Positions 4,262 through 36,872 of a stretch of 49,045 bases of DNA are shown here, piece after piece. The stretch covers positions 1-49,045 of the forward strand of contig CALLZN010000015.1 of the NCBI GenBank assembly GCA_937858895.1, written 5' to 3'. A model generated the notes under the pieces. It searched no databases. It worked only from the letters and a program-made list of their open reading frames with translations, and was not told the origin of the DNA. A program made the translations under genes and the position numbers. Every line of letters starts with the position of its first letter. Position 1 is the first letter of the stretch. The stretch comes from an uncultured bacterium (lineage in GTDB: Bacteria > Planctomycetota > UBA1135 > GCA-002748355).

Positions 4262-6160
4262 ATGACGACCCTGCTAGCAAGTGTCTTCTTCCTTCTTGCC
4301 TCCATCGCGGCTTCGAGTGCTCCACGCCAAGACGAAGCTGCCAAGCCCGATCCGGTTGCAGCGCGCGAGGCAGCATTCGCCGCGAAGATGAGCGGCTGCA
4401 AGATGGTCGGCTTCTTCACTCTCGACGGGAAGGCCGGCGACAACGCGAACAAGCGTGAGCCCAAGGAAGAGAGCTACACCATCGCCAAGGTCGAGAAGCT
4501 GCGCGGCGACCAGTGGCGCTTCATGGCCAAGATCGAGTACGGCGAACGCTCGGCGACGTTGCCCATCGTCGTCAAAGTCCTTTGGGCCGGTGACACGCCG
4601 GTGATCCAAGTCACGAAGATCCCCGTGCCGACCATGGGGACTTACACAGCGCGCGTGCTCGTCTACGACACGCATTCCGCTGGGTTCTGGGCCGGGTCCA
4701 ATTACGGCGGTCACATGTATGGGCGCATCGTTCGTGCGGACGACGAAGAGAGCAAGGTCGTCGAAGAAGAAGCGCGCAAGCAGACCCCTGCCGAGCCAGC
4801 ACCCGACAAGCAATCACCCGACAAGCAAACACCAAAGGACGCCGAGCGAAGCGATACCGGCAAGGACCGTGAACAGAGCGCCGCCGACTGGCCACAGTTT
4901 CGCGGCCGCTTCGGGCGTGGCATCGCCGATGCAGCGACCTACCCGACGACATGGAACGTGGAGACCGGCGACAACATCCTCTGGAAGACCGCCGTGCCCG
5001 GGCTCTCGCACAGCTCGCCTGTGCTGGTCGGCAATCGCATCTTCTTGACGACCGCAGTGCCAAAGGACGGCAAGGACGCGCAGCTCACCGTCGGTCTCTA
5101 TGGGAGCATCGTTCCGGTCGCGAACGAGGGCGCGCAGGAGTATCGCGTGCTCTGCTACGCGAAGCAGAGCGGCGAACTGCTCTGGTCGAAGACCTGCTTC
5201 GAAGGCGTGCCTGACGTCAAACGCCATCCCAAGGGTTCTCACGCCGCGCCGACCGCCACGAGTGACGGTAAATACGTCATCGCCCACTTCGGCAGTGAGG
5301 GCCTCTACTGCTTCGATGTCGACGGTCGTCCGCTCTGGAACAAGTCGCTGGGCCACCTCGACGCCGGCTACTTCATGCTCGACAAGGCGCAGTGGGGCTT
5401 TGCTTCCTCGCCGGTCCTGCATGACGGCAAGGTCATCGTCCAGTGTGACATCCAAGGGCAGAGCTTCTTGACGGTCCTCGATGCGGCGACCGGCAACGAG
5501 GTCTGGAGGACGCTCCGTGACGAGGTTCCGACGTGGGGCTGTCCGACCATCGACGAGCGCGATGGGCGGGTGCAGATCATCGTCAATGGCTTCAAGCACA
5601 TCGGCGGCTACGACTTCGCGAGTGGCAAAGAGATCTGGAAGCTGCGAGGCGGCGGCGACATCCCGGTGCCGACGCCGATCGTGCACGAAGACGTGATCTA
5701 CATCACGAATGCCCACGGCCGCTTGTCGCCGATCTTCGCGATCGCGGTCCATGCCGAGGGCGACTTGTCCATGGATGCCAGCGAGTGCGACCACATGAAG
5801 TGGAGTTGGACGAAGCGCGGCAATTACATGCAAACCCCGCTCGCCCACGACAAGGAGCTCTACTGTTGCAACGACATGGGGGTCTTGTCCTGTATCGACA
5901 ACAAGACCGGCGAACTCGTCTACCGAGAACGCATGGGCGGGGGCCGCATGGGCTTCACGAGCTCGCCGATCTTGGCGGACGGCAAGCTCTACTTCGGCAG
6001 CGAGGACGGCGAGGTCCATGTCGTGCGCGCTGGGCGGAGCTTCGAACGCTTGGCGCTCAACGAGCTCGGTGAAACCCTCATGGCGACCCCCGCGGCCTCG
6101 GGCGGTGTCCTCTACTATCGCGGGCGCCGGCATCTCTTCGCGATTGGCGAACGCGGCTGA
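4262..6160 (+). CDS. secreted PQQ-like propeller protein with extra N-terminal domain (2)
   Basis: This 632-aa protein starts with a clear signal peptide (MTTLLASVFFLLASIAAS). Residues about 35-165 form a beta-rich domain (KMVGFFTLDGK, then VLWAGDTPVIQV and YTARVLVYD), a type I associate with planctomycete secreted proteins. A Lys/Pro/Gln linker with short repeats (DKQSPDKQTPK) follows. From about residue 208 the propeller begins with WPQFRGRFGRG, then blades such as SGELLWSKT and GNEVWRTLRD. The ligand and role are unknown. DUF3817 follows 14 bp downstream and may be co-transcribed. The absence of a Shine-Dalgarno plus a TAGAAT box 7 bases upstream suggests a leaderless start. Confidence 0.87.
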   Translation: MTTLLASVFFLLASIAASSAPRQDEAAKPDPVAAREAAFAAKMSGCKMVGFFTLDGKAGDNANKREPKEESYTIAKVEKLRGDQWRFMAKIEYGERSATLPIVVKVLWAGDTPVIQVTKIPVPTMGTYTARVLVYDTHSAGFWAGSNYGGHMYGRIVRADDEESKVVEEEARKQTPAEPAPDKQSPDKQTPKDAERSDTGKDREQSAADWPQFRGRFGRGIADAATYPTTWNVETGDNILWKTAVPGLSHSSPVLVGNRIFLTTAVPKDGKDAQLTVGLYGSIVPVANEGAQEYRVLCYAKQSGELLWSKTCFEGVPDVKRHPKGSHAAPTATSDGKYVIAHFGSEGLYCFDVDGRPLWNKSLGHLDAGYFMLDKAQWGFASSPVLHDGKVIVQCDIQGQSFLTVLDAATGNEVWRTLRDEVPTWGCPTIDERDGRVQIIVNGFKHIGGYDFASGKEIWKLRGGGDIPVPTPIVHEDVIYITNAHGRLSPIFAIAVHAEGDLSMDASECDHMKWSWTKRGNYMQTPLAHDKELYCCNDMGVLSCIDNKTGELVYRERMGGGRMGFTSSPILADGKLYFGSEDGEVHVVRAGRSFERLALNELGETLMATPAASGGVLYYRGRRHLFAIGERG

Positions 6161-35276: not shown

Positions 35277-35540
35277 ATGCCGAACATCAAGAGCGCGAAG
35301 AAGCGCCTCAAGCAGGACGCGGTGCGACGCGTCGAGAACAAGACCAAGAAGTCGATGATGCGCACCTGGATCCGCAAGCTCAACGAAGCGGTCCAGGCGG
35401 GCAACAAGGCCGAGGCCCAAGAGATGCTGCCGACGGTCTTCCAGAAGATCGACAAGGCCGCCAAGGCCAACTGCATCCACGCCAACACGGCCGGCCGGCG
35501 CAAGGCGCTTGCTGCGCGTCGCGTTCAGGCCATGGCCTGA
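35277..35540 (+). CDS. rpsT: 30S ribosomal protein S20
   Basis: Ribosomal protein bS20 (87 aa), which binds 16S rRNA in the small subunit body. The typical start MPNIKSAKKRLKQDAVRR is followed by a Lys/Arg-rich helical hairpin (NKTKKSMMRTWIRKL) and ends GIIHANTAGRRK-like as CIHANTAGRRKALAARRVQ. The length is normal. No Shine-Dalgarno sequence precedes the ATG even though this should be a highly translated gene. A TATCTA hexamer at 35232-35237 could be its -10 element. Confidence 0.97.
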   Translation: MPNIKSAKKRLKQDAVRRVENKTKKSMMRTWIRKLNEAVQAGNKAEAQEMLPTVFQKIDKAAKANCIHANTAGRRKALAARRVQAMA

Positions 35541-35668
35541 GCTGCGAGACTGCTGCGAGGCTGCTGCTAGTTTGTGGGGGGGCCTGCTGCTGCGGCCCTG
35601 CTGCGAGGCGCGTGATCCGTTTCACGGGCACGGCGCCTGCTCGTGATTACCCACTATCGCGGGTCTGC
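35541..35668 (+). terminator. structured spacer downstream of rpsT
   Basis: The sequence after the rpsT stop has degenerate CTGCTGCGAGG repeats (35541-35608) and a hairpin. GGCG/CGCC (35607-35610, 35634-35637) flanks CGTGA/TCACG (35611-35615, 35622-35626). This could terminate the rpsT message. No U-tract follows, so the call is tentative. Confidence 0.3.
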
Positions 35669-35727
35669 CTCAGGCCTTAGACTGAGTCTTCCCCACCGTG
35701 TTCACGGTTGTCCAGACTCGGCCTGAG
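35669..35727 (+). promoter_or_regulatory. nested inverted repeat immediately upstream of the beta-helix gene
   Basis: Three perfect stems are nested: CTCAGGCC/GGCCTGAG (35669-35676, 35720-35727), GAGTCT/AGACTC (35684-35689, 35714-35719) and ACCGTG/CACGGT (35695-35700, 35703-35708). The two outer 3' arms abut without a gap. The structure ends 8 bases before ATG 35736. TAGACT (35678-35683), in the only 5' bulge, resembles a -10 element. It may be an RNA leader switch, an operator or a terminator. Confidence 0.5.
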
Positions 35728-35735
35728 AACACACC

Positions 35736-36872
35736 ATGCACTTACTCTTCCAGATGCCGCTTTCGTTAGCGGCTCTCGCCCTGGCGACTTCGCTGACTGC
35801 CCAACGCACCTGGGTCGTCGACGCCAACAACGGCCCCGGGACCGACTTCGTCGACCTCCCGCCCGCCATCGCGCAAGCCGTCGATGGGGACATCGTCACG
35901 GTGCGCAGCGGCACGTATCGTCCCTTCGTGACGTCCAAGGGGTTGAGTCTCCTGGGCGAAAGCGGTGCCACGATCGCGAGCTCGATCAGCGACTTCTGCT
36001 CCGTCAGCAACCTGGCTGCGGGCAAGCGCTTCGTGATGCGAGGCATCACCTTCACGGACGCTAGTCCGTTCTCATTGTCGTCGTACTACCTCGTCATCGA
36101 TCAGTGTCGCGGGGCTGTCCACCTCGACGGGCTTGCTACGGCCGGGGTGCGGAGCGTCCTCGTACTGCTTCGCTCTTGTGGCCTCGTGACTGTCTCGCAC
36201 ATCACGGCGACAAGCGGCATCGAGATCGAGTCGAGTCGCGTGTCGTTGCACGACGCCTCGCTCCAGGTGGCTGGGCTCGCCGCCGCGCTCCGCCTCACGA
36301 ACTCGACCGTCGAGGCGACCGAGGTCAACTTGCGCGGCTCGCCGGGCCACCCGCACATCAACCCGTATCCAGGCGTCTTGATGCTGTCGTCGACGCTCGA
36401 AGTTCGAGGCACGGTCGCCTCGCTCATCGCGGGCGGAACGGCGTCGTCCGCCCAAGCACCAGCCATTTGGTCCGATGGACCGACGCTCCGCCTCGATCCC
36501 AAGATCAGGCTCATCGGTGGAATCGAAGGCGTCACGCCGACGATCGCCGCGATGCCGGCCTTGCGGGTTGTTTCCGGTCAACTGGGCGGGACCAAGCGCT
36601 TCGACCTGAGCACGCAGCCGCAGCAACTCGCCGTCATCTTCGGGGCTCTTCCGATGAACCCCATCGACACCAACATCGGCCGCGTCTGGCTCGACCTGCC
36701 GACGCTCTTCGTCGTCGGAGCGATGGTCGTCGACGCATCCGGGACGTGGCGACTCACGACGCCGAACCCGAGCTTGCCGTCGCTGCGCGGCCTGGCCATC
36801 ACCTACCAGGCGCTCGACATCGGTCCGCAGGCGACGACAGTTTCGAACGCCGCGACCCTCGTTCTTCACTGA
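35736..36872 (+). CDS. secreted parallel beta-helix-type protein with shared C-terminal module
   Basis: A 378-aa exported protein. The signal peptide is MHLLFQMPLSLAALALATSL, with a second possible start at ATG 35754. The mature protein begins WVVDANNGPGTDFVDLPPAI and continues DGDIVTVRSGTYRPF and LSLLGESGATI. This is the opening of the pectin-lyase-like right-handed beta-helix found in many planctomycete proteins. Short beta strands follow through residue ~260. The C-terminal ~100 residues (LDLPTLFVVGAMVV, LPSLRGLAITYQAL, SNAATLVLH) carry the module shared with other secreted proteins in the window. No catalytic residues are recognised. A 59-base nested inverted repeat ends 8 bases before the start. 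Confidence 0.83.
   Translation: MHLLFQMPLSLAALALATSLTAQRTWVVDANNGPGTDFVDLPPAIAQAVDGDIVTVRSGTYRPFVTSKGLSLLGESGATIASSISDFCSVSNLAAGKRFVMRGITFTDASPFSLSSYYLVIDQCRGAVHLDGLATAGVRSVLVLLRSCGLVTVSHITATSGIEIESSRVSLHDASLQVAGLAAALRLTNSTVEATEVNLRGSPGHPHINPYPGVLMLSSTLEVRGTVASLIAGGTASSAQAPAIWSDGPTLRLDPKIRLIGGIEGVTPTIAAMPALRVVSGQLGGTKRFDLSTQPQQLAVIFGALPMNPIDTNIGRVWLDLPTLFVVGAMVVDASGTWRLTTPNPSLPSLRGLAITYQALDIGPQATTVSNAATLVLH

Follow-up and report, generated by a model that had tools for sequence, protein, structure and literature searches.

The window analysed here, a stretch of 49,045 nucleotides from an uncultured member of the Planctomycetota, contains a conspicuous nested inverted repeat just upstream of a start codon. 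This raises the question of whether the repeat has a function of its own or whether it merely overlaps the promoter of the gene that follows. Both flanking genes lie on the plus strand. The upstream gene, rpsT (35277..35540), encodes ribosomal protein S20 (Pfam PF01649, E 4.6e-25), and directly after it, at 35541-35609, a 21-nt GCTGCGAGACTGCTGCGAGGC unit is present in three imperfect copies. The downstream gene (35736..36872) encodes a putative secreted protein of 378 aa with a signal-peptide-like N-terminus. The search for a Pfam or NCBIfam family gave no match for this product; the term beta-helix, which was used in the first-pass annotation, is a putative description. The protein belongs to a multi-copy family with 10 matches in this genome and 21 in a genome from the same genus.

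The repeat (35669..35727, no strand assigned) consists of three nested stems without a mismatch. The outer stem of 8 bp is formed by CTCAGGCC (35669-35676) and GGCCTGAG (35720-35727), the middle stem of 6 bp by GAGTCT (35684-35689) and AGACTC (35714-35719), and the inner stem of 6 bp by ACCGTG (35695-35700) and CACGGT (35703-35708) with TT between the arms. A bulge of 7 nt, TTAGACT (35677-35683), occurs solely on the 5' side of the junction between the outer and middle stems, and AGACTGAGTCT is a palindrome in its own right. The repeat is separated from the ATG at 35736 by 8 bases, AACACACC. The geometry is hence the one described in the first-pass annotation. In its RNA form the inner stem has 5 bp and a loop of 4 nt, since two nucleotides are too few for a loop. 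Folding of the 59-nt repeat gave -26.2 kcal/mol and a z-score of -4.33, which was equalled by 0 of 200 shuffles; together with its flanks the z-score is -3.04.

It had been argued that so much pairing is unlikely by chance. The shuffles bear this out for the locus itself, but it does not hold on the scale of the genome. A count of nested 8+6+6 structures spanning no more than 66 nt gave two in 1.05 Mb of the genome, whereas 20 dinucleotide shuffles contained 0.85 on average; the chance expectation is ~0.04 per 49-kb window and ~5 per genome. Both matches are intergenic in DNA that is ~88% coding, a hint that intergenic hairpins may be under some selection. When 311 intergenic regions were ordered by the z-score of their best 60-nt fold, the repeat region ranked 53rd. 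With a frequency at chance level and this rank, the structure is unusual at its own spot and ordinary genome-wide. These statistics cover ~1.05 Mb of 5.77 Mb, namely the window and whole contigs or the first 20 kb of contigs, with one masked contig left out; the genes were called by a codon-usage script, not by Prodigal, and some starts are wrong. The strongest intergenic fold in the 1.05 Mb (z -13.4) belongs to another contig (L189 16159-16204), where a hairpin of 20 perfectly matched bp with a loop of 6 nt lies between two genes; it is possibly a terminator.

The repeat is present as a single copy in the genome. The combination AGACTGAGTCT...AGACTC has one genomic occurrence, and the same holds for the outer arms. 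The search for further copies, which had been proposed as a check, hence found one copy only, and this argues against a target for recombination or phase variation. Rfam covariance models gave no match at the gathering score in the whole window.

The hexamer TAGACT in the bulge (35678..35683, plus strand) had been noticed as -10-like. In ~1.06 Mb of the genome TAGRMT was seen 18 times at 6-7 nt before an ATG, while ~4 occurrences were expected. Four control hexamer patterns were without a peak at this distance; the control TGARNT showed a 3-base rhythm, as expected from coding DNA. Long frames begin at many of the ATGs that follow TAGRMT; two examples in the window, TAGAATCACGCGC-ATG and TAGAATCGCGGGCTG-ATG, lead into frames of 632 and 210 codons respectively. 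TAGACT itself was found 8 times in promoter regions against 2.9 expected. Judged from the enrichment before ATG, TAGRMT looks like a local -10 box in this Planctomycetota MAG, and by this resemblance the TAGACT of the bulge is probably the -10 box of the secreted-protein gene. Support also comes from a paralogue in the same genome, where TAGACT stands 48 nt ahead of the ATG in the layout TAGACT-N12-CCCACCGTG...GAGAGACCCAA-ATG, with the stems absent. A -35 box is not visible at the locus, and this counts against the promoter reading. The position of TAGRMT close before ATG, in the window and in many contigs, also suggests leaderless mRNAs. In this context the starts called at 4403 and 11122 of the window probably lie too far downstream; the ATG directly after TAGAAT is the better choice in these cases.

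If TAGACT is the -10 box, the statistics on TAGRMT predict a 5' leader at 35690..35735 on the plus strand. RNA spanning 35690-35760 is no more structured than expected (z 0.03), because the outer and middle 5' arms lie upstream of the predicted start. This bears on the earlier suggestion that the repeat is an RNA leader that hides the start region. We aligned the leader with those of three relatives, one from the same genome and two from the same-genus genome. The related leaders keep 5-7 of the 19 pairs, which is about the level expected from unrelated columns, and in this alignment of four paralogous sequences the columns of the inner stem are largely gapped. A retention of the stems by compensatory changes, as in a conserved structured RNA leader, was not found in the three related leaders; these relatives are either paralogous or remote, with 37-45% protein identity, such that a recent function at the species level could escape the comparison. 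Neither the fold of the predicted RNA nor the alignment thus favors a leader that hides the start. The first-pass annotation had named two findings that would speak against the structure, a lack of conservation and a transcript that begins downstream of 35709. Of these, the former was obtained in the relatives compared. The latter was not, since the predicted start near 35690 lies upstream of 35709; even so, an RNA with this start would be without the 5' arms of the outer and middle stems.

What the four aligned leaders do have in common are the invariant motifs CCCACC and GAGA, and some related leaders also have a -10-like hexamer. In the window the former is part of a CCCACCG box (35692..35698, plus strand). 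Of 18 leaders of the secreted-protein family, 8 contain CCCACC, ~30-60 nt before the start, compared with 0.37 expected, four of the eight having served to notice the motif. These leaders are the one in the window (35692-35697) and those of L229, L233, L234, L235, L239, L242 and L245; the motif is also present in L004 and L005, which come from two genomes of a different genus in the same family. An out-of-sample test was positive in 1 of 4 cases, and most loci failed with the start not recognisable. The sharing of CCCACC may reflect either a common regulatory box or plain descent from one ancestor. The second motif includes GAG (35725..35727, plus strand), a weak Shine-Dalgarno-like triplet within the outer 3' arm. 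GAG/GGAG, GAGG and AGGA peak ~6-15 nt before the called starts of the genome, which indicates that Shine-Dalgarno initiation is also used; with 8 nt to the ATG, GAG is inside the range of this peak. We also considered a leader peptide encoded by a 23-codon GTG frame at 35698, which is out of frame with the ATG at 35736, but nothing supports it.

Together, the TAGRMT and TAGACT statistics, the stem-less paralogue, the few pairs kept in related leaders, the chance-level frequency, the single copy and the rank among intergenic regions lead us to the following reading, to which we assign a probability of about 0.52. The gene at 35736 has its promoter and a short leader in this region, and the overlapping repeat is mostly a coincidence in a single species without conserved function. 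TAGACT would act as the -10 box and transcription would begin near 35690, such that the mRNA would lack the 5' arms of the outer and middle stems; the weak GAG may serve as the Shine-Dalgarno-like triplet before the ATG. The nested repeat would then overlap the -10 box, the start and GAG by coincidence in GC-rich intergenic DNA and would have no conserved role as an RNA or DNA element. Two results are counted against an incidental hairpin: the fold beats all 200 shuffles, and both nested matches in 1.05 Mb are intergenic.

Three other explanations give the repeat a function. Its location downstream of rpsT on the same strand had suggested a terminator of this gene. An intrinsic terminator, with a GC-rich hairpin followed by a U-tract, does not fit, as neither strand has a U-tract, the tails being AACACACC on the plus and GCAGACCC on the minus strand, and a terminator search on the plus strand of the region found none. 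A factor-dependent or U-tract-less terminator, or a 3' stabilising hairpin of the rpsT mRNA, would agree with the best folds of intergenic regions, which are stronger where genes converge (median z -3.0, 18 regions) than where they run in tandem (-1.5), and with several strong post-stop hairpins in the genome that are without long U-tracts. However, the distance from the rpsT stop to the hairpin is 128 nt, as against 10-80 nt for most of the strongest hairpins between tandem genes, and other hairpins are nearer to rpsT. We consider this function doubtful. Still less probable is a DNA operator in which a dimeric regulator would bind the arms that surround the -10 box and the start site. The arms do flank TAGACT, and AGACTGAGTCT could offer a site by its own symmetry, but the single occurrence of the arms in the genome and their absence from all paralogue promoters read speak against it.

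A slightly better case, albeit also an unlikely one, can be made for protection against read-through. An mRNA that continues from rpsT would fold the full hairpin, bury GAG in the outer 3' arm and block translation, while the gene's own transcripts would start inside the repeat and escape. The two genes are in tandem with no recognisable terminator between them, and the strong fold of the full repeat contrasts with that of the RNA from 35690. Structure prediction agrees with a ribosome-binding site that is paired in the long and free in the short RNA, although this site is a weak one and both RNAs are hypothetical. Read-through from rpsT is an assumption, related leaders are without the stems, and in the same-genus genome there is no equivalent repeat after rpsT but a different sequence. 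A contig search with rpsT gave a single close relative (L047, 90%), which is probably identical with the record of the G001 contig. If the model were true, a planctomycete secreted-protein gene would be translatable solely from its own transcript and silent on the rpsT read-through mRNA.

The main value of the promoter reading is that it would explain away an eye-catching hairpin. As a by-product, the analysis provides evidence that a Planctomycetota lineage uses TAGRMT as a -10 box and has leaderless starts; the motif could improve start-codon calls in such genomes. None of the papers returned by a full-text literature search, judged by title and abstract, maps Planctomycetes promoters.

Hairpins that protect against read-through occur in phage T4 gene e and in the IS10 transposase gene, where the promoter lies in an inverted repeat and the 3' arm covers the ribosome-binding region. 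The locus here is similar in that a predicted promoter is inside the repeat and the 3' arm is over a putative ribosome-binding region; it differs in that it is not conserved in the relatives compared and has just GAG as a Shine-Dalgarno match. With intrinsic terminators it shares a GC-rich hairpin in an intergenic region after a gene, whereas it has no U-tract, is distant from the stop and adjoins the following start codon. In high-GC bacteria TANNNT ~12 bp upstream of the start is a mark of leaderless genes (PMC3160421; see also PMC12340547), and Deinococcus-Thermus have TANNNT-type -10 promoters, which are often leaderless (PMC12340547). The TAGACT described here is 52 nt before the ATG, hence the predicted leader of ~46 nt, unlike in these leaderless promoters. 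The likeness is that TAGACT fits TANNNT, that the hexamer is enriched at promoter positions of this genome and that many genes here have TAGRMT ~12 nt upstream of the ATG.
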